NCBI RefSeq assembly: GCF_003610295.1
Contig: NZ_RAPV01000002.1
Span: 930,001-994,000 of the forward strand
Source of the DNA: Paraburkholderia sp. BL23I1N1
Lineage (GTDB): Bacteria > Pseudomonadota > Gammaproteobacteria > Burkholderiales > Burkholderiaceae
Direction: 5' to 3'
DNA length: 64,000 nt
Below the pieces are notes generated by a model that saw only the letters and a list, made by a program, of their open reading frames with translations, did no database searches and was not told where the DNA came from. The stretch's first letter is position 1, and every line of letters begins with the position of its first letter. The position numbers and the translations under genes are program-made. This document shows positions 789 to 13,537 of the stretch, piece by piece.

Positions 789-2384
789 ATGGCTGTCCAT
801 ACCGCGGCCCACCATTCGAGTGGGCAAGTTTTGCCTTTCCGTGAGTCGCTGCTGGCGATGCTCGGCATTTCCTTCGTCACGATGCTGGTCGCGCTCGACC
901 AGACGGTGGTCGGCACCGCCTTGCCCACTATCGTCGCGGAGCTTAAGGGATTCGAGCTTTACGCGTGGGTCGCCACGTCATATCTGCTGACCTCGGTGAT
1001 TACCGTACCGATCTTTGGCCGACTCGGCGACTATTACGGGCGCAAGCCGTTCGTCATCGCGTCCATCGTCGTGTTCACGGGGGCTTCGGTGCTGTGCGGC
1101 GCTGCCAACAACATGCTGTTCCTCGTGCTCGCACGCGGCTTGCAGGGCATCGGCGGCGGCATGCTGGTCGGCACCGCCTTCGCGTGCATTCCCGATCTCT
1201 TCCCCGACTCGGTCGTGCGGCTGCGCTGGCAGGTGCTAATGAGTTCGGCGTTCGGCATTGCGAACGCGGTGGGGCCGTCGCTAGGTGGCTTTCTCACGCA
1301 GTATTACGGCTGGCGCTCGGTGTTCTACGTGAATCTGCCAGTGGGCTTGCTGTCGCTGTTTTTCGTCTGGCGCTTCCTGCCGCATCTGCGGCATGTCGAG
1401 CACAAGAGCAAGATGCGGCTCGATTGGCCGGGTGCGCTACTGATCGCGGTGGCGCTCGGTTCGCTGCAATTGTTTGTCGAGTTGCTACCAAAACACGGCG
1501 TGACGTTGGGCGCCTTCGCGCTGCTCGCGCTGAGCGTCGCCTCGGCATACGCGTTGTGGCAGTGGGAAAAGCGTTGCCCGACGGCGATTCTGCCGGTGGA
1601 TATGTTCCGCAATCGCAGTCTGGCGGCGCTCTTCACGCTCGCCGTGCTGGGCGGCTTCACGATGTTCTCGTTGCTGTTCTACGCGCCGTTGCTCTTTCAG
1701 GGCGGTTTCGGGATGTCGCCGAAAGAAGCGGGGCTCGTCATTACGCCGCTCGTCGTGTTCATCACGATTGGCAGTATTGCCAACGGCCGTATCGTCTCGC
1801 GTGTGCGCAATCCGAATCTGATGCTGTACGTCGGCTTCGCGCTGCTGGCGCTGTCGTGCCTGGGTGTGGTGATCGCGACGCGCTCCATGCCGCAATGGCT
1901 ATTGATGTCGTTCATGGTGGCCGGCGGACTCGGTCTCGGCTTCGTGATGCCCAATCTGACGATCTTCGCGCAGCAGACAGCCGGCCGCGAACACCTCGGT
2001 ATCGCTACCGCGCTGCTGCAGTCGCTGCGGATGATCGGCGGGATGATCGGCACGGCGCTGACCGGCACGTTGATTAGCCATATGTACGCGAGCGGCGTGC
2101 GCAGCGCGCTGGACAACGATCACGCTTCGCAATGGTTCGCCGATCTCGGCGACCCGCAAATTCTGATCAATCGCGACGCGCAAACCACCTTGCTTGGGCA
2201 GTTGACGCAGGCGGGCCACAACGGCGCGATGTTGCTCGAGAGTGCGCGCGAGGCGCTCGTCGCGGCGATTCATCTGGGTCTCGCGCTGGCGGCGATCATC
2301 GCCGTGGTGTCCGTGTGGCAAAGCCGCCGTGTGCCGCCGATCAAGCTCCAGCGCAAGCTCGAGCCGGTGATTCACGCAGATTGA
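789..2384 (+). CDS. MFS multidrug exporter, DHA2 (EmrB/QacA) family
   Basis: Predicted proton-driven drug efflux permease of the inner membrane, 531 aa from this start. It has the DHA2 signature LDQTVVGTALPTI in the first transmembrane helix, the cytoplasmic loop motif GRLGDYYGRKP after helix 2, and GPSLGGFL in the motif C region. About 14 hydrophobic segments are present, as expected for the 14-TMS subfamily. An in-frame ATG at 744 exists but overlaps the probable -10 box, so 789 is preferred. The marR gene starts 32 bp after the stop, which points to one autoregulated transcript. The substrate cannot be read from the sequence. Confidence 0.9.
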   Translation: MAVHTAAHHSSGQVLPFRESLLAMLGISFVTMLVALDQTVVGTALPTIVAELKGFELYAWVATSYLLTSVITVPIFGRLGDYYGRKPFVIASIVVFTGASVLCGAANNMLFLVLARGLQGIGGGMLVGTAFACIPDLFPDSVVRLRWQVLMSSAFGIANAVGPSLGGFLTQYYGWRSVFYVNLPVGLLSLFFVWRFLPHLRHVEHKSKMRLDWPGALLIAVALGSLQLFVELLPKHGVTLGAFALLALSVASAYALWQWEKRCPTAILPVDMFRNRSLAALFTLAVLGGFTMFSLLFYAPLLFQGGFGMSPKEAGLVITPLVVFITIGSIANGRIVSRVRNPNLMLYVGFALLALSCLGVVIATRSMPQWLLMSFMVAGGLGLGFVMPNLTIFAQQTAGREHLGIATALLQSLRMIGGMIGTALTGTLISHMYASGVRSALDNDHASQWFADLGDPQILINRDAQTTLLGQLTQAGHNGAMLLESAREALVAAIHLGLALAAIIAVVSVWQSRRVPPIKLQRKLEPVIHAD

Positions 2385-2416
2385 TTTTTTTAGCCTTACC
2401 GTTTTACTGACAGATC

Positions 2417-2914
2417 ATGGAAGAACAGGACCGCGTCGCCGTCATGCAGCAATTCGGCCGCACTTATCGGGCGTTCATGTCGGCGTTCGAGTCCCAGGTC
2501 GGCCATCCGTTGCCGCGCTGGCGCATTCTGCTCGCGCTGCATGAGCAGGCCGGCGAGTCGTCGCAGAAGCGGCTGGTCGAGCGCTTGCGCGTCGATCCGG
2601 GCGCGCTCACGCGGCAGTTGAAAACGCTCGAGGGTTTGGGCTGGATTGCTCGCAGCATGGATACGCGCGATAACCGCGTGACCAATGTGCGGTTGACCGA
2701 AACGGGGCAGTCGGCGATCGAAGCCAGCTTGCCTGCCCGCAACGCTTTTTTGCACGATACGATAGCGGCATTGCCCGACGATGCGCTGAACGCGCTGTCG
2801 GGGGCGTTGAAGTTGCTAGAAGTGCGGATCGGCGAAGTGGCGGCGACGGCTAACCCGGCAGGCGCGGATTCCGCCGCTTCTGCGCAAGCTCCCGAAACGG
2901 CCACGGCACGTTAA
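2417..2914 (+). CDS. MarR-family transcriptional regulator
   Basis: A 165-aa winged-helix regulator. The recognition region reads QKRLVERLRVDPGALTRQLK (about residues 52-71), followed by the wing MDTRDNRVTNVRLTETG. Helical dimerisation segments lie at both ends, and the last 20 or so residues are Ala/Pro-rich and probably disordered. The gene sits 32 bp behind a DHA2 exporter, an arrangement usual for a local, ligand-responsive repressor of that exporter. The likely operator is the TTGAC-GA-GTCAA palindrome upstream of the exporter. Ligand unknown. Confidence 0.9.
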   Translation: MEEQDRVAVMQQFGRTYRAFMSAFESQVGHPLPRWRILLALHEQAGESSQKRLVERLRVDPGALTRQLKTLEGLGWIARSMDTRDNRVTNVRLTETGQSAIEASLPARNAFLHDTIAALPDDALNALSGALKLLEVRIGEVAATANPAGADSAASAQAPETATAR

Positions 2915-3023
2915 ACCCTGCAGACGGAAGAGCTGCCGATTCAGCGCCGCAGCCGCGGTGAACGACACGACCTGAACCGAGGTCACGAAGGGCGTGAACG
3001 TCATGAGCGCCACGAACATCCCG

Positions 3024-3057
3024 AACGGCGCGCCACTTCACCGTGAAGCGCGCCGTT
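3024..3057. terminator. Bidirectional hairpin between marR and the D-amino acid lyase gene
   Basis: Perfect outer stem AACGGCGCGC / GCGCGCCGTT enclosing a nested TTCAC-C-GTGAA stem. It lies between two convergent genes, so it can serve both. Only a short T-run follows on the plus strand. Confidence 0.6.
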
Positions 3058-3067
3058 TGCATCAGGA

Positions 3068-4345
3068 TCAGAAGAACGTTTCGATCACTTCAGTCACGCG
3101 ATACGACGGATCGAGCACCAGCACCTGACGCCACTTGTCGAAAGTAAGGCAGGGGTGCGAGATGTCGAACGCAATCATGTCGCCCACTTTCAAATCGGCA
3201 CCCGCGGGAATCCGCAAATACGCGTGCTGATCCATCAAGCCGAAAATCTCCCAGCCTTCGCTCGCCGCGATATCGCGCGGTGCCTCCGTGCCCGGACGAT
3301 AGTGGCGCGCCGGTTCCGGCATGCCCGCGTCGAAAGCGGAATCGCGTTTGCCGAGACCGATGATCGCGCGATCCGGTTCCGGGATCGACTGCACGTACGC
3401 CCATAGTTGCAGCGCCGGCAAGAGTCCTTCGCCCATTTTCTTTGCGACCGGATTGCGCGCGAAGATGTCAGTTTGCGCCTTACGGTAGACGCCGACGTCA
3501 TGTGACAGATAGCAGCCGGGCCGCAGCACGACTTCGACCTTGCCGGTTTCCGATGCCTTCACGAATTCTTCCGCGACCACGTCGTACCAGGCCGAGCCGG
3601 CGCCTGACAGAACGGCCGGCGTGCGGGCAAAACGTCCTTCCTCGACCAGCGCGCGCGTCACGGCGACGGCGCTCTGCAGGAACTCGCGCACCTCGTGTTC
3701 TTCTTTCAGCACGCCTTCATATAACTCGACGCCCGCCAGCTTCAACACGTCCGGATAGCGTGCGATCGCTTCGAGCACCGCGTTGCGCTGCGCTTCGTCG
3801 CGCACGCCGGTGCGGCCGCCCGGCACGCCGAGCTCGAGCAATACTTGCAACGGCTTGCGTACCGACGTGAAAAACTGCCCCAATTGCTCGACGCCTTCGA
3901 CCGAATCCACGAGGCAGAAGAACTCGAAATCAGGGTCGCTCAGCAATTCGGCGACCATCATCATGTTGCGGCGGCCGACCAGCTGATTAGCCATCAGGAT
4001 TCGCGAAACGCCGCCGTGATACGCCGCGCGCACCTGATGCGCGGTGGCGAGCGTGATACCCCATGCGCCGGTTTCGAGCTGACGGCGAAACAGCTGCGGC
4101 GCCATGGTGGTTTTGCCGTGCGGCGCGAGCTTGACACCGTATTCTGCGACGAACGCCTGCATCCACTTCAGGTTGTGTTCCACACGATCCGCGTACAGCA
4201 CGGCGGCGGGGAGGCTCACGTCTTCGTTCAGCAGATTCCACTCGAGGCGCGCGGCATCCGTGAGTTGGATACTGGTGCCCGGAACCATGCCCAAGCCCTT
4301 GCTATAAGGATCAATCGTTGCGCCCTGATAGTTTGTAACTTTCAT
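3068..4345 (-). CDS. PLP- and zinc-dependent D-amino acid lyase/deaminase (D-threonine aldolase / D-serine dehydratase family)
   Basis: A 425-aa alanine-racemase-fold protein. Lys78 in APHGKTTMAP is the expected PLP-binding lysine. The C-terminal SHPCLTFDKW supplies a His-x-Cys pair like the zinc ligands of eukaryotic-type D-serine dehydratase. It should therefore split or deaminate a D-hydroxy amino acid, although proteins of this group are often annotated only as amino acid deaminase. The start at 4345 (MKVTNYQ) is preferred; an upstream in-frame ATG at 4381 would add 12 residues without an obvious ribosome site. It is divergent from an RpiR regulator and next to N-acyl-D-amino-acid deacylase and RidA genes, supporting a role in D-amino acid catabolism. 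Exact substrate unknown. Confidence 0.8.
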   Translation of the reverse strand: MKVTNYQGATIDPYSKGLGMVPGTSIQLTDAARLEWNLLNEDVSLPAAVLYADRVEHNLKWMQAFVAEYGVKLAPHGKTTMAPQLFRRQLETGAWGITLATAHQVRAAYHGGVSRILMANQLVGRRNMMMVAELLSDPDFEFFCLVDSVEGVEQLGQFFTSVRKPLQVLLELGVPGGRTGVRDEAQRNAVLEAIARYPDVLKLAGVELYEGVLKEEHEVREFLQSAVAVTRALVEEGRFARTPAVLSGAGSAWYDVVAEEFVKASETGKVEVVLRPGCYLSHDVGVYRKAQTDIFARNPVAKKMGEGLLPALQLWAYVQSIPEPDRAIIGLGKRDSAFDAGMPEPARHYRPGTEAPRDIAASEGWEIFGLMDQHAYLRIPAGADLKVGDMIAFDISHPCLTFDKWRQVLVLDPSYRVTEVIETFF

Positions 4346-7398: not shown

Positions 7399-7480
7399 TG
7401 GTGTTGGCCTTTCCTTGTTTTTTTTGGTTTATTAGCGTTGCTGTGCGGGGCGGCACCTACTTTTCTTTGCCTGCGGTGTG
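7399..7480 (+). repeat. Left outer arm of a dispersed inverted-repeat element
   Basis: This stretch, from GGCCTTTCC through GGTTTATTAGCGTTG and GTGCGGGGCGGCAC to CTTTCTTTGCC-like sequence, recurs in inverse orientation at about 13460-13537. The copies differ by small indels. It has no coding frame. The IS3/intron composite interrupts the element right after 7480. Bases 7324-7398 hold nothing I recognise. Confidence 0.65.
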
Positions 7481-7743
7481 TGTCAAGCCAGTTGTCGGTG
7501 TGCCAAGAAGGAAAGCGACAGTACGTCGCTGTACATGCTGTATCCGTGATGAGGGCCGGCCCCTCGGTGTCGCCGATCAGGCGGTGATACCAAACCACCC
7601 AGAGCTGCACTCGTTAAGAGCGGGTGTGGTGAGCGTCTGTGGAAAAGGCGGGATGAATCCCGTCAGGTGTGCAGTAAGGAGGCGAACGAAAGTGAACCAT
7701 CGAAGAAGTGTCGATAATTGCAATGATGTCAAAACCGAGGACT

Positions 7744-7750
7744 CGACAAC
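7744..7750 (+). other. EBS1 of group II intron copy 1
   Basis: CGACAAC is the exact reverse complement of the seven exon bases immediately before the intron, 7491-7497. The mirror site in copy 2 is 12564-12570. This base pairing directs both splicing and DNA target choice in group II introns. Confidence 0.75.
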
Positions 7751-7981
7751 GCCTCGGGATCAGTCAAACGGCAACCTGAAGGTGGGTTTGACGGCATCCG
7801 GCATAGAGGTGGCGCGACCTTTCTGCAGGCGTGGATATGGAACTTGGGAACCTGTCGTCTCGATGTCAAGGGAGAAACTCAAGCGGAGAACCCGTGAGAG
7901 TGAGAGTACCGATGCGAGGCACAGGGGCGGAGTCATGCGTAGTAGCGTTGAAGGGGTTGTAATGACTTCCGGAGCGAAGGC

Positions 7982-9289
7982 ATGACCTTGTCTGGTGGAG
8001 ATCATGGAACAACTGCGACGCGGGATGATTCCGGGGTTGACGCCAAGTCGTTCGAGATACCCAAGCGATTGATCTGGGAAGCCTGGAAACGCGTGGCTGC
8101 CAATCAAGGCGGTCCGGGCGTGGACCGGGAGAGTATTGAAACCTTCCGCAATCGTTTGGCGAGAAATTTGTACGCTCTGTGGAATCGAATGAGTTCGGGG
8201 AGTTACTTTCCTCAACCGGTCAAGGAGGTGCTGATTCCGAAGGGGGACGGGTTTCGTCCTCTCGGGGTACCGACCATCACTGACCGAGTGGCTCAGATGG
8301 CAGTCAAGTTACTGGTTGAGCCGGGAATCGATGCGATATTTCATTCATCATCGTTCGGCTATCGTCCTAACAAATCGGCGAAGCAAGCTGTGGCGCAAGC
8401 GAGAAGGAACTGTTGGCGCTACGACTGGGTAGTCGATATTGACTTGAAATCCTTCTTTGACACCATCGACCACGGGCTTCTCAGACGTGCGGTCGAAAAG
8501 CACGTTTCGGAGCCATGGGCACGACTCTACATCAGACGCTGGCTAGAGAGTCCGGTACAGAAGCAAACCGGGGAGCTGGTTGCTCGGGATCGAGGCACTC
8601 CGCAAGGTGGAGTGATCAGTCCGCTATTGGCTAACCTCTTTCTTCACTACGCGTTTGATCGATGGGTTCAGACTGAGCATCCGGATGTGCCGTTTGAACG
8701 GTATGCCGACGATGTTGTCTGTCATTGCAGGACGAAGCAGCAGGCGGAAAAGTTTTTGTCTGCCTTGCGGGAGCGGCTTACCGCATGTGGGCTTTTGCTA
8801 CATCCGGAAAAGACGCGCCTAGTTTACTGCAAAGATGGCCGGCGTCGAGGGGAACATACCCACACCAAGTTCGATTTCCTTGGTTTCAGCTTTCATGCTC
8901 GGACAGTCCAAGACCGAGCGGGAAACCTGTTCACCGGATTCGGACCTGCGGTAAGTCAAAAGGCGCTAACGCGAATGTCTCTGGCCATTCGAAGCCTGAG
9001 TCTCAATCGAAGTACCTCATTGACGCTGTCCGAACTGGCGCGGCGCATAAACCCGATGGTCAGGGGATGGGTGAATTACTACGGTGCCTTCTATCCGGAG
9101 CCGTTGAAACGGTTCTTGGTCAGAATAGACTTGCGGCTTGGCGGGTGGGCGCGAAATAAGTACAAGCGACTGAGAGGACACAAACGACGATCTTGGGCGT
9201 GGCTCAAACGATGTCGGGAAAGTCTTCCCCAGCTGTTCGCGCACTGGGATTTCTGTTTCGAAGAACGGCGGACAAGAGGAGCCGTATGA
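7982..9289 (+). CDS. ltrA: Group II intron-encoded reverse transcriptase/maturase, copy 1
   Basis: A 435-aa intron-encoded protein needed for splicing and retromobility. The RT domain covers about residues 55-310, with RPLGVPTITDRVAQ, GTPQGGVISPLLANLF and the catalytic YADD at 241-244. The maturase X region follows, with NPMVRGWVNYYGAFY. The C-terminal KYKRLRGHKRR...LFAHW resembles the endonuclease-less RmInt1-like (class D type) proteins. No HNH endonuclease domain follows, so mobility would rely on single-stranded target DNA, for example at replication forks. The protein is identical in sequence to the copy encoded at 11025-12332. Confidence 0.93.
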   Translation: MTLSGGDHGTTATRDDSGVDAKSFEIPKRLIWEAWKRVAANQGGPGVDRESIETFRNRLARNLYALWNRMSSGSYFPQPVKEVLIPKGDGFRPLGVPTITDRVAQMAVKLLVEPGIDAIFHSSSFGYRPNKSAKQAVAQARRNCWRYDWVVDIDLKSFFDTIDHGLLRRAVEKHVSEPWARLYIRRWLESPVQKQTGELVARDRGTPQGGVISPLLANLFLHYAFDRWVQTEHPDVPFERYADDVVCHCRTKQQAEKFLSALRERLTACGLLLHPEKTRLVYCKDGRRRGEHTHTKFDFLGFSFHARTVQDRAGNLFTGFGPAVSQKALTRMSLAIRSLSLNRSTSLTLSELARRINPMVRGWVNYYGAFYPEPLKRFLVRIDLRLGGWARNKYKRLRGHKRRSWAWLKRCRESLPQLFAHWDFCFEERRTRGAV

Positions 9290-9361
9290 ATCGAGAGATT
9301 CACGTACGGATCTGTGAGAGCCTGAGGGGGCAGGTCCCTCGGGCCACTCGACCATGAACCG

Positions 9362-10386
9362 TTACGCTGCGTGCTTAAACATTCCGGCCGAGGCGTGGAC
9401 TCTCTCCGGATTCAGATAGACCGAATCCGCGAGATGCCAGTTGCGGATGGCGCCTGAGCAGCGTGCGGGGTTTCGCATGCGCGCGTCCTCATAGAGCGCA
9501 TGCCGTCGGGCCAGCAGTTCGTTGGCTTCTCCGCGGTGCCGTTGCACCGGACTGACGTACTTCAGGCCGCTGTGACGGTGCTCCTCGTTGTACCACTGCA
9601 CGAAGCGCTGTACCCAGGCGCGGGCAGCCTCCAGCGTGTCGAACGGCTGCTCGGGCCACAGCGGACAGTACTTCGCCGTGCGGAACAGCGACTCGGCAAA
9701 CGCGTTGTCGTTGCTCACGCGCGGCCGGCTGAACGAAGGCTGTACGCCCAGATCGATCATGGCCGCGCGCATCGTGGCGCCTTTCATCGCACTGCCGTTA
9801 TCCGCGTGCAGCACCAGCGGACGACCCGCAATACCTTCACGCAGACATCCCTTGGCCAGCAGCACACTTGCGTGCTCGGCCGACTCCTGTTCCCACACCT
9901 CGTTCATCACCAGCTTGCGGCTGTAGATGTCCTTCATCATGTACCAGTAGAAGTACCGTCCCCGGACCGTGGTGGGCATCCACGTGATGTCCCAGCACCA
10001 CACCTGGTTCGGGCCTCGGGCACAGTGCGTCGTGAGCGCTCGCCGTTGTGGGGCCTGCGCACGGCCGCGCCGCTGCCCCCCTGACCTGCTGCTTTCAGGA
10101 TCCGGTAGAACGTCGATTCAGATGCCAGATACACCCCTTCATCAGCCAGCTTCGGCACGATCTGGTGCGGTGTCAGGCTCGCGTAACCCGGGCGGTTGGC
10201 GGCCTCCAGCACGGCCTGACGCTCGGCCTCATCCAGTTTGTTCGGCGGCGCATCACGAATGGCCTGCGTACGGCCGTCCTCTGGGGTTTCACGCCAGCGC
10301 TGCACACTGCGCACGCTGACTCCCAACTGCTCACACGCCTGCGCACGGCGTGCCCCCTGCTGCACCGCTTCATCGATCAGTTGCAT
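9362..10386 (-). pseudogene. IS3-family transposase orfB (DDE integrase), frameshifted
   Basis: Two overlapping frames together make one orfB. The first, 10386 down to about 10080, carries the HTH-like start MQLIDEAVQQGARRAQACEQ and the HTH_21 region up to FYRILKAAGQ. The second, down to 9362, carries the rve integrase core: WCWDITWMP, LHADNGSAMKGA, and the Glu in NDNAFAESLFRTAKY. Conceptual translation across the junction joins cleanly if one G is added to the six-G tract (plus-strand C6 at 10076-10081). That gives 341 aa. The tract plus the following C also fits a GGGGGGC slippery heptamer in the correct phase for -1 slippage, but IS3 elements normally frameshift between orfA and orfB, so mutation or sequencing error is more likely. 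Confidence 0.85.
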
Positions 10387-10412
10387 GGCTTCATCGCGAT
10401 CCGGGCGGCTGA

Positions 10413-10910
10413 TCAGTCTTCCTCTTCCTTGCCCCAGATCGCGTCGGCTTTTTTTCGCAGGTTCAGCAACGCCGCCGCCTCCGCACGTGCGGCATCGGCG
10501 CGCTTGAGCTGGCGCTCCAGTTCACGGATGCGTTTCTCGTGAGCCTTCACTTCCTTGCGCTGGGCCGCCGTCAGTTTTACCTCCGGCGCGTTGGCCCGCT
10601 CGCACGCCTCGCGCCACTGCAGGATCTGCTCCGGATAAATGCCCTTCCTGCGGCAGTACTCTGACGTCTCCACCTCGCTCAGCGACGCCGTCTCCAGCAC
10701 GACCCTGAACTTGTCGGCGCTCGACCATCGATCACTTGTCTTGCCATTACCCGGCATGTATTCCCCAGCCTGTCTTGCGCTCTGCCGCCAGGCGCGCAGC
10801 GTCACCGTCGTGATGCCCGTCGCCCCCGCCAGCTCGATCACCGCACGATTGAACGGCGGCATCATCTGTCTGACTACCCATTGCCGCGTCTCTGCTGAAT
10901 AGCGTCTCAT
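10413..10910 (-). CDS. IS3-family transposase orfA
   Basis: A 165-aa orfA with two helix-turn-helix segments. The first is near residues 25-45 (AVIELAGATGITTVTLRAWR). The second is a typical IS3 HTH in SSADKFRVVLETASLSEVET followed by YCRRKGIYPEQILQWREACE. A leucine-zipper-like coiled coil sits at the C-terminus (EKRIRELERQLKRADAARAE). It ends 26 bp before the orfB start, in line with the separate-orf layout. The upstream leader to the IS end is interrupted by group II intron copy 2. Confidence 0.88.
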   Translation of the reverse strand: MRRYSAETRQWVVRQMMPPFNRAVIELAGATGITTVTLRAWRQSARQAGEYMPGNGKTSDRWSSADKFRVVLETASLSEVETSEYCRRKGIYPEQILQWREACERANAPEVKLTAAQRKEVKAHEKRIRELERQLKRADAARAEAAALLNLRKKADAIWGKEEED

Positions 10911-10961
10911 CTTCCATTCGCTGTCCGCCCTCCATCTTTACATCGATCGGTTCGGGCGACG

Positions 10962-12816
10962 GTCGAGTGGCCCGAGGGACCTGCCCCCTCAGGCTCTCAC
11001 AGATCCGTACGTGAATCTCTCGATTCATACGGCTCCTCTTGTCCGCCGTTCTTCGAAACAGAAATCCCAGTGCGCGAACAGCTGGGGAAGACTTTCCCGA
11101 CATCGTTTGAGCCACGCCCAAGATCGTCGTTTGTGTCCTCTCAGTCGCTTGTACTTATTTCGCGCCCACCCGCCAAGCCGCAAGTCTATTCTGACCAAGA
11201 ACCGTTTCAACGGCTCCGGATAGAAGGCACCGTAGTAATTCACCCATCCCCTGACCATCGGGTTTATGCGCCGCGCCAGTTCGGACAGCGTCAATGAGGT
11301 ACTTCGATTGAGACTCAGGCTTCGAATGGCCAGAGACATTCGCGTTAGCGCCTTTTGACTTACCGCAGGTCCGAATCCGGTGAACAGGTTTCCCGCTCGG
11401 TCTTGGACTGTCCGAGCATGAAAGCTGAAACCAAGGAAATCGAACTTGGTGTGGGTATGTTCCCCTCGACGCCGGCCATCTTTGCAGTAAACTAGGCGCG
11501 TCTTTTCCGGATGTAGCAAAAGCCCACATGCGGTAAGCCGCTCCCGCAAGGCAGACAAAAACTTTTCCGCCTGCTGCTTCGTCCTGCAATGACAGACAAC
11601 ATCGTCGGCATACCGTTCAAACGGCACATCCGGATGCTCAGTCTGAACCCATCGATCAAACGCGTAGTGAAGAAAGAGGTTAGCCAATAGCGGACTGATC
11701 ACTCCACCTTGCGGAGTGCCTCGATCCCGAGCAACCAGCTCCCCGGTTTGCTTCTGTACCGGACTCTCTAGCCAGCGTCTGATGTAGAGTCGTGCCCATG
11801 GCTCCGAAACGTGCTTTTCGACCGCACGTCTGAGAAGCCCGTGGTCGATGGTGTCAAAGAAGGATTTCAAGTCAATATCGACTACCCAGTCGTAGCGCCA
11901 ACAGTTCCTTCTCGCTTGCGCCACAGCTTGCTTCGCCGATTTGTTAGGACGATAGCCGAACGATGATGAATGAAATATCGCATCGATTCCCGGCTCAACC
12001 AGTAACTTGACTGCCATCTGAGCCACTCGGTCAGTGATGGTCGGTACCCCGAGAGGACGAAACCCGTCCCCCTTCGGAATCAGCACCTCCTTGACCGGTT
12101 GAGGAAAGTAACTCCCCGAACTCATTCGATTCCACAGAGCGTACAAATTTCTCGCCAAACGATTGCGGAAGGTTTCAATACTCTCCCGGTCCACGCCCGG
12201 ACCGCCTTGATTGGCAGCCACGCGTTTCCAGGCTTCCCAGATCAATCGCTTGGGTATCTCGAACGACTTGGCGTCAACCCCGGAATCATCCCGCGTCGCA
12301 GTTGTTCCATGATCTCCACCAGACAAGGTCATGCCTTCGCTCCGGAAGTCATTACAACCCCTTCAACGCTACTACGCATGACTCCGCCCCTGTGCCTCGC
12401 ATCGGTACTCTCACTCTCACGGGTTCTCCGCTTGAGTTTCTCCCTTGACATCGAGACGACAGGTTCCCAAGTTCCATATCCACGCCTGCAGAAAGGTCGC
12501 GCCACCTCTATGCCGGATGCCGTCAAACCCACCTTCAGGTTGCCGTTTGACTGATCCCGAGGCGTTGTCGAGTCCTCGGTTTTGACATCATTGCAATTAT
12601 CGACACTTCTTCGATGGTTCACTTTCGTTCGCCTCCTTACTGCACACCTGACGGGATTCATCCCGCCTTTTCCACAGACGCTCACCACACCCGCTCTTAA
12701 CGAGTGCAGCTCTGGGTGGTTTGGTATCACCGCCTGATCGGCGACACCGAGGGGCCGGCCCTCATCACGGATACAGCATGTACAGCGACGTACTGTCGCT
12801 TTCCTTCTTGGCACAC
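10962..12816 (-). mobile_element. Group II intron, copy 2 (1855 bp, inverted)
   Basis: Same length as copy 1, with the same 5' end (GTGTGCC, complement starting at 12816) and the same 3' end at 10962. The encoded protein is identical. It is inverted relative to copy 1, so the pair makes an 1855-bp inverted repeat separated by 1609 bp. The 5' exon again ends in AGTTGTCG. The 3' exon begins CGTCGCCC, against CATGAACC for copy 1, so only the first base is shared. Confidence 0.92.
11025..12332 (-). CDS. ltrA: Group II intron-encoded reverse transcriptase/maturase, copy 2
   Basis: 435 aa, identical to the copy 1 protein, with the same YADD catalytic core, X domain and absence of an HNH endonuclease. 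Identity over the full length indicates a very recent duplication or gene conversion between the inverted copies. If both introns are transcribed from outside the IS, the two transcripts would converge on the IS. Confidence 0.93.
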   Translation of the reverse strand: MTLSGGDHGTTATRDDSGVDAKSFEIPKRLIWEAWKRVAANQGGPGVDRESIETFRNRLARNLYALWNRMSSGSYFPQPVKEVLIPKGDGFRPLGVPTITDRVAQMAVKLLVEPGIDAIFHSSSFGYRPNKSAKQAVAQARRNCWRYDWVVDIDLKSFFDTIDHGLLRRAVEKHVSEPWARLYIRRWLESPVQKQTGELVARDRGTPQGGVISPLLANLFLHYAFDRWVQTEHPDVPFERYADDVVCHCRTKQQAEKFLSALRERLTACGLLLHPEKTRLVYCKDGRRRGEHTHTKFDFLGFSFHARTVQDRAGNLFTGFGPAVSQKALTRMSLAIRSLSLNRSTSLTLSELARRINPMVRGWVNYYGAFYPEPLKRFLVRIDLRLGGWARNKYKRLRGHKRRSWAWLKRCRESLPQLFAHWDFCFEERRTRGAV

Positions 12817-12833
12817 CGACAACTAGGCTGACA
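12817..12833 (-). repeat. Right outer part of the IS terminal inverted repeat (IBS1 included)
   Basis: Read on the minus strand this is TGTCAGCCTAGTTGTCG, against TGTCAAGCCAGTTGTCG at 7481-7497. The last seven bases are IBS1 for the intron. It marks the outer end of the IS on the orfA side. Confidence 0.65.
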
Positions 12834-12845
12834 TGGAGGGCCTGC

Positions 12846-12940
12846 CGCAAAGAAAAGTAGGCAAAAGAAAGCGGCTCAAACCGCCAGCTCATAAGCGGGT
12901 CCCCTGGCTTGGAGGGGGTAGTGGTGCATCTGGAATCCGT
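12846..12940 (+). repeat. Inner arm of the dispersed inverted-repeat element
   Basis: Contains AAAGAAAGCGGCTCAAACC, AGCTCATAAGCGGGTCCC and TAGTGGTGCATCTGGAAT. The same blocks occur in inverse order and orientation at about 13367-13453. Between the arms, 12941-13153 shows no credible coding frame and no recognised feature. Confidence 0.65.
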
Positions 12941-13366: not shown

Positions 13367-13537
13367 GATTCCAGATGCACCACTACCGTGGCTGCGCGGG
13401 GGACCCGCTTATGAGCTAACGGTGTGAAGCCGCTTTCTTTGCTTATCTTTCTTTGCGGCGGCGGCAAAGAAAGTAAGTGCCGCCCCGCACAGGGGCAACG
13501 CTAATAAACCACTAACAAAACAAGGAAAGGCCAACGC
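13367..13537 (-). repeat. Right arm of the dispersed inverted-repeat element
   Basis: Inverse of 12846-12940 (inner part) and of 7399-7480 (outer part, from about 13460). Includes the palindromic CTTTGCGG...CCGCAAAG-type hairpin and the GTGCCGCCCCGCAC block. The inverted match on both sides shows the IS/intron composite landed inside one arm. Bases 13538-13586 up to the queF stop are AT-richer and featureless. Confidence 0.65.

Follow-up and report, generated by a model that had tools for sequence, protein, structure and literature searches.

Group II introns select their targets through the pairing between exon-binding site 1 (EBS1) and intron-binding site 1 (IBS1). This mode of recognition is also reported in PMC5894124. 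RmInt1 of Sinorhizobium, associated with ISRm2011-2, has been proposed to curb the spread of the insertion sequence (IS) that hosts it (PMC5894124, PMC4238363), and RmInt2, an intron of Sinorhizobium meliloti, reportedly has targets in both inverted repeats of ISRm17 (PMC5894124; again in PMC8496243). In this work, a 64,000-nt stretch of the genome of Paraburkholderia sp. BL23I1N1 (9.12 Mb, four contigs) was analysed; this stretch (the window hereafter, C2:930001-994000) harbors an intron-IS-intron unit made of two group II introns and of the IS3-type core located between them.

The first-pass annotation of the window had named RmInt1 and ISRm2011-2 as the precedent, and knew of no case with both ends of one IS occupied. 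RmInt1 does resemble the window intron in being an IS-homing group II intron, but it has one target, in an IS630-family element (PMC5894124, PMC4238363), and RmInt2 with ISRm17 is closer. Indeed, plasmid pRmeGR4d of S. meliloti GR4 (NC_019849.2, 1678607-1684056) carries one ISRm17 with an intron in both ends, the 3′ ends pointing toward the transposase, so that the window is not the only case. The arms of the GR4 unit are 1909 nt long, listed as 100% complementary and separated by 1632 nt; the convergent pair maps at 1679162-1680412 (+) and 1682251-1683501 (-), and the exons match both sides of ISRm17. The unit encloses an ISNCY transposase, and the same element is annotated as ISRm17 in other records. 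Both GR4 megaplasmids were searched, disclosing seven intron copies (four plus three), which are named RmInt2 here because these numbers equal those printed for RmInt2 (PMC5894124). The GR4 and window units are alike in bearing an intron at both ends of one IS, with the 3′ ends facing the transposase. They differ in the family of the IS (ISNCY for ISRm17, IS3 in the window) and in the intron-encoded proteins (IEPs), which are 52% identical (50% when the probable RmInt1 IEPs of GR4 are compared with that of the window); moreover, the Paraburkholderia intron was also found in the end of an IS21-family element. The GR4 unit is matched somewhere by 244 plasmid records, with a coverage of at least 80% in just one, GR4 itself, and no description of a doubly occupied IS was found in the open-licence literature searched. 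An IS occupied at both ends is thus a rare finding, of which the window is not the sole case; its unit is a second example, from the IS3 family, of one IS carrying an intron in each of its inverted repeats. What it adds is this IS3-family case, an intron lineage that occupies either one end or the other in several IS3-type elements as well as the end of an IS21-family element, and clean controls with empty sites.

Anatomy of the unit and its intron-free counterparts

The repeat search of the window disclosed two inverted arms of 1873 nt (7481-9353 and 10961-12833), spaced 1607 nt and listed as 100% complementary after rounding, their outer 17-mers agreeing at 14/17 positions. Arms of this length cannot have originated by chance. 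Each of them embeds a group II intron of 1855 bp (Table 1); the two introns are identical in sequence, oppositely oriented and directed with their 3′ ends toward the transposase genes, as the first-pass annotation had described. Both copies match RF01999 (group II D1-D4, 105.9 bits) and RF00029 (domain V/VI) above the Rfam gathering score. The IEP, whose profile scoring was done on the left copy, is a reverse transcriptase (RT)/maturase, matching TIGR04416 with 404.2 bits (cut-off 300) in addition to RVT_1 and GIIM. The core is of the IS3 type, with an orfA containing a helix-turn-helix (HTH) domain and an orfB encoding a DDE/rve transposase, and the short target duplication of the IS3 family is present (CCTGC), intact outside both introns. 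Since the transposase lies on the minus strand, the right IS end in the window is the orfA-proximal one. The frame of orfB is broken in this copy, while it is a single open frame (385-395 codons from stop to stop) in four sampled relatives; with NF033516, an intact relative scores 184 bits (cut-off 160) and the two broken pieces 136.1 and 32.8.

Table 1. Features of the intron-IS-intron unit (positions in the window).
Feature	Position	Strand	Basis
Target-site duplication CCTGC, left copy, within a REP-like palindrome	7470..7474		Sequence; 5-bp duplications in 13/24 intron-free relatives
Outer 23 bp, orfB-distal IS end, 5′ exon of left intron; IBS1 TTGTCG at 7492-7497	7475..7497	+	Alignment with uninterrupted ends
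Group II intron, copy 1	7498..9352	+	Repeat search, Rfam, alignment
EBS1 CGACAA, hairpin loop, complementary to IBS1	7744..7749	+	Alignment of 5′ ends
Intron-encoded RT/maturase (435 aa), Pfam scan negative for an endonuclease domain	7982..9289	+	RVT_1 and GIIM, TIGR04416
Domain V/VI, copy 1	9277..9352	+	RF00029, 55.1 bits (same in copy 2)
IS3 core, 1609 bp, between introns; 3′ exons on both sides, +1 C in the sense of each intron	9353..10961	-	Sequence, aligned ends
orfB, 3′ part (DDE/rve), frame different from the 5′ part	9362..10003	-	Open reading frames, profile matches
orfB, 5′ part (HTH), other frame	9937..10386	-	Open reading frames, profile matches
orfA (HTH_Tnp_1), 165 aa	10413..10910	-	Open reading frames, profile match
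Group II intron, copy 2, same sequence as copy 1	10962..12816	-	Repeat search, Rfam, alignment
Intron-encoded RT/maturase, copy 2	11025..12332	-	Open reading frame list
Outer 24 bp, orfA-proximal IS end, 5′ exon of right intron; IBS1 at 12817-12822, minus strand	12817..12840	-	Alignment with uninterrupted ends
Target-site duplication CCTGC, right copy	12841..12845		Sequence; relatives

The two introns occupy homologous positions, 23 bp (left) and 24 bp (right) from the IS tips, and the alignment with intron-free ends confirms that the same site of both terminal repeats of an IS3-type element is involved. In the same genome, two truncated copies of the IS have a left end that is uninterrupted at the predicted junction, TGTCAAGCCAGTTGTCG/CATGAACCG (the slash marking the insertion point). 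In one of them (L018; C1:3.12 Mb), the left end TGTCAAGCCAGTTGTCGCATGAACCG is uninterrupted and the right end is occupied by the intron, with an internal deletion in between; in the other (L019; C1:4.765 Mb), only an uninterrupted left end remains. Altogether, five ends belonging to this IS were found in the genome, three of them intron-occupied, and a pattern search returned no empty site of the consensus type other than these two. The deletion in the L018 copy (positions 1556-4120 of the locus) measures 0.9 kb; in L019 (1554-5210), the truncated IS3 copy has as neighbours a further reading frame resembling a transposase and an intron of 71% identity, in which EBS1 and IBS1 have changed together.

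The search was extended to 144 genomes of the same genus, scoring two candidates per genome and then searching four of them more deeply. It disclosed 24 full relatives of the IS at 85-91% identity (five in G105, eight in G005, six in G123 and five in G008), all of which cross both junctions uninterrupted (48/48 intron-free ends); the same holds for all the single ends (8/8) retained by partial copies that lie at the edges of contigs in G016, G035, G074 and G127. Matches to the intron were obtained in 44 genomes and, at E 0.001, none in G105; G005 and G123 contain introns that are 70-71% identical, and G008 contains truncated copies at 97-98% identity. The latter are 5′ fragments (L146 and L147), even though the five full IS copies of G008 are all intron-free. 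This is the comparison that the first-pass annotation had called for, and it supports its proposal that the outer flanks are part of the IS; intron-free termini lacking the AGTTGTCG 17-mers, which it had named as evidence against its own reading, were looked for, and the reading held. The possibility that the exons belong to some other gene was rejected, since the empty IS ends match them. Long inverted ends could also invert the core, as in the IS inversion via recombination between terminal inverted repeats (PMC3004938); unlike that case, the window core is in its native orientation, and an inverted core was rejected because outer and inner ends are paired as in the uninterrupted copies.

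The relatives also define the limits of the element: beyond the left 17-mer they have GGTGTG in common, and beyond the right one GGAGGG. The IS therefore spans 7475-12840, with these two motifs as its tips. The first-pass annotation had correctly reported the 14/17 match of the outer flanks; however, its placing of the IS start at TGTCA was abandoned, because the conserved hexamers and the duplications lie outside this motif and the true tips are 6-7 bp further out. As for the insertion target, 22 of the 24 relatives are flanked by CTTTG and CAAAG, i.e., both flanks lie inside the palindrome CCTACTTTTCTTTGC-CTGCC-GCAAAGAAAAGTAGG, and 15 unoccupied palindromes of this kind with short loops were found in the genome harboring the window. 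The target duplications of the 24 relatives measure 5 bp in 13 cases, 4 bp in two, 3 bp in one and 2 bp in two, and are absent in six. In the window, the sequences at 7441-7474 and 12841-12870 form a palindrome resembling repetitive extragenic palindromic (REP) sequences, whose centre is the IS3 target; in this respect, the element is similar to the REP-targeting IS elements (PMC1525189), as it also inserts in a REP-like sequence. Further inverted repeats lie next to it (12844-12904 and 13399-13459; 61 nt, 79% complementary) and are probably of the REP type.

Target recognition and distribution of the intron lineage

The 5′ exons of both introns end with TTGTCG (IBS1), and both 3′ exons begin with C. 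EBS1, CGACAA, lies in a hairpin loop closed by CCGAGG/CCTCGG and is perfectly complementary to TTGTCG. A homing site is present in both inverted repeats of the IS: both are occupied in the window, and the same site is found in the empty ends. When the 5′ ends of the window intron and of related introns were aligned, CGACAA was maintained in 19 out of 22; the exons of these 19 end with TTGTCG (14), ATGTCG (three), TTGTTG (one) and TTGTCA (one; boundary estimated). In two of the three introns with another sequence (L150 and L019), the loop and the exon are altered together and are still complementary.

The intron is identical across its 1855 bp at five places in the genome. Outside the window, related introns have the 3′ end toward IS3-type transposase genes at seven of the 15 loci tested, sometimes at the orfB-distal end (L155, Caballeronia; L156; L157, P. 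elongata; L161) and sometimes at the orfA-proximal one (L144, a P. phytofirmans plasmid; L160, Rhodocyclus; L163, Halomonas); L160 also shows a candidate empty opposite end, ATGTCG/T. At two further loci of the same genome as the window (L152 and L153), the intron is inserted in an IS21-family element, 7 bp from the tip, and its 3′ end points outward. These loci (L152:7203-9753 and L153:6030-8580) have in common 689 bp of the IS, the intron and the 7 bp, with one mismatch over 2551 positions, and their flanks differ beyond this stretch. Among the loci compared, RT matches on opposite strands occur besides the window only in P. elongata, where the two introns differ, and draft contigs ending inside the IS limit this count. 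The P. elongata IS3 (L157:7517-11540) bears the window lineage at the orfB-distal end and the other intron just upstream of orfB; the latter has an IEP that is 43-53% identical and a domain V/VI at 10526-10451. A further candidate for an inverted pair (H76, NZ_CP148088.1) was rejected, its two introns being divergent.

It is possible, and we propose it tentatively, that this lineage parasitises transposons as a generalist, homing to their ends, and that it might recognise a motif close to TGTCAAGCTAGTTGTCG/C at the ends of unrelated IS3-type and IS21-type families; in this case, one ribozyme occupying either or both ends might represent a broad transposon lock.

Origin of the unit

The arrangement is very probably explained by the insertion of an IS3-family element at the centre of a REP-like palindrome, which would have generated the 5-bp duplication, followed by two separate retrohoming events of a mobile group II intron, without a recognised endonuclease domain, one in each terminal repeat. 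The homing site, TTGTCG/C with a TGTCA-like stretch upstream, is the same in both repeats and pairs with EBS1; the inverted arrangement of the repeats explains why the introns point toward each other. As both repeats are split, DNA transposition should be prevented, and the unit most likely represents a locked IS that the intron uses as a landing pad; the second transposase frame is broken, too. We infer the RNA-mediated nature of the insertions, their order and the loss of transposition from this arrangement.

Some data weigh against this explanation. The five introns are identical, so that their ages cannot be ordered, and gene conversion, or the spreading of an end that already carried the intron, might account for them instead of separate insertions. 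Over about 710 bp of the IS, the window and L018 differ by two clear substitutions, against none over the 1855 bp of the intron (p ~0.08), a divergence too small to decide; this count omits two differences in a 12-bp overlap at the L018 deletion junction (p is 0.006 with all four). In addition, orfA/orfB matches are absent at seven of the 15 loci tested (L145, L146, L148, L158, L159, L181 and L189), in L149 an orfB fragment is located on the opposite side of a truncated intron, and the intron loop of L181 is mismatched to its own exon.

Other routes to the same structure can be imagined. One end might have been occupied by homing and the other filled from it by gene conversion or recombination, which would be favoured by the geometry of identical, inverted copies 1.6 kb apart; this is unlikely, considering that empty ends share only tens of bases outside the intron, that the lineage is found elsewhere at single ends of either type, and that the exons of each intron correspond to the IS end in which it lies, not to the opposite one. 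The intact outer ends and 5-bp duplication would also be expected if the intron-IS-intron unit had arrived whole by transposition, the outer 23-24 bp still working as ends. This appears very improbable, given that the inner parts of the terminal repeats are displaced by 1855 bp, that orfB is broken, and that no second copy of the unit was found in the genome, where the only other matches come from truncated copies whose left end is empty. Lastly, identical inverted repeats of 1.9 kb are difficult to assemble from short reads, and one intron might have been duplicated or misplaced by the assembler; we regard such an artefact as the least probable of these alternatives, since 9.1 Mb were assembled in four contigs, the exon pair of each intron matches the empty ends of the proper side, and the same design exists in an independent public genome (GR4). 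Thus, separate retrohoming into the two repeats of a resident IS is the explanation that we favour.

Replication strand and significance

An inverted repeat offers two homing sites of opposite polarity per IS, one of which is on the lagging-strand template whatever the direction of the fork, as argued for RmInt2 (PMC5894124). On the basis of sampled GC skew, which is weak near the window (+0.0055 to +0.028), four of the five identical introns (the left one of the window, L152, L153 and L018) have the lagging-template orientation, the right one of the window being the exception; this fits the RmInt1/RmInt2 picture, with numbers far too small for a test. Double occupancy indicates that the less favoured orientation is usable as well. 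With the clean empty-site controls, the strand preference can be tested directly outside Sinorhizobium, and so can the idea of IS locking; the interest of the window unit lies in the target breadth of its intron.
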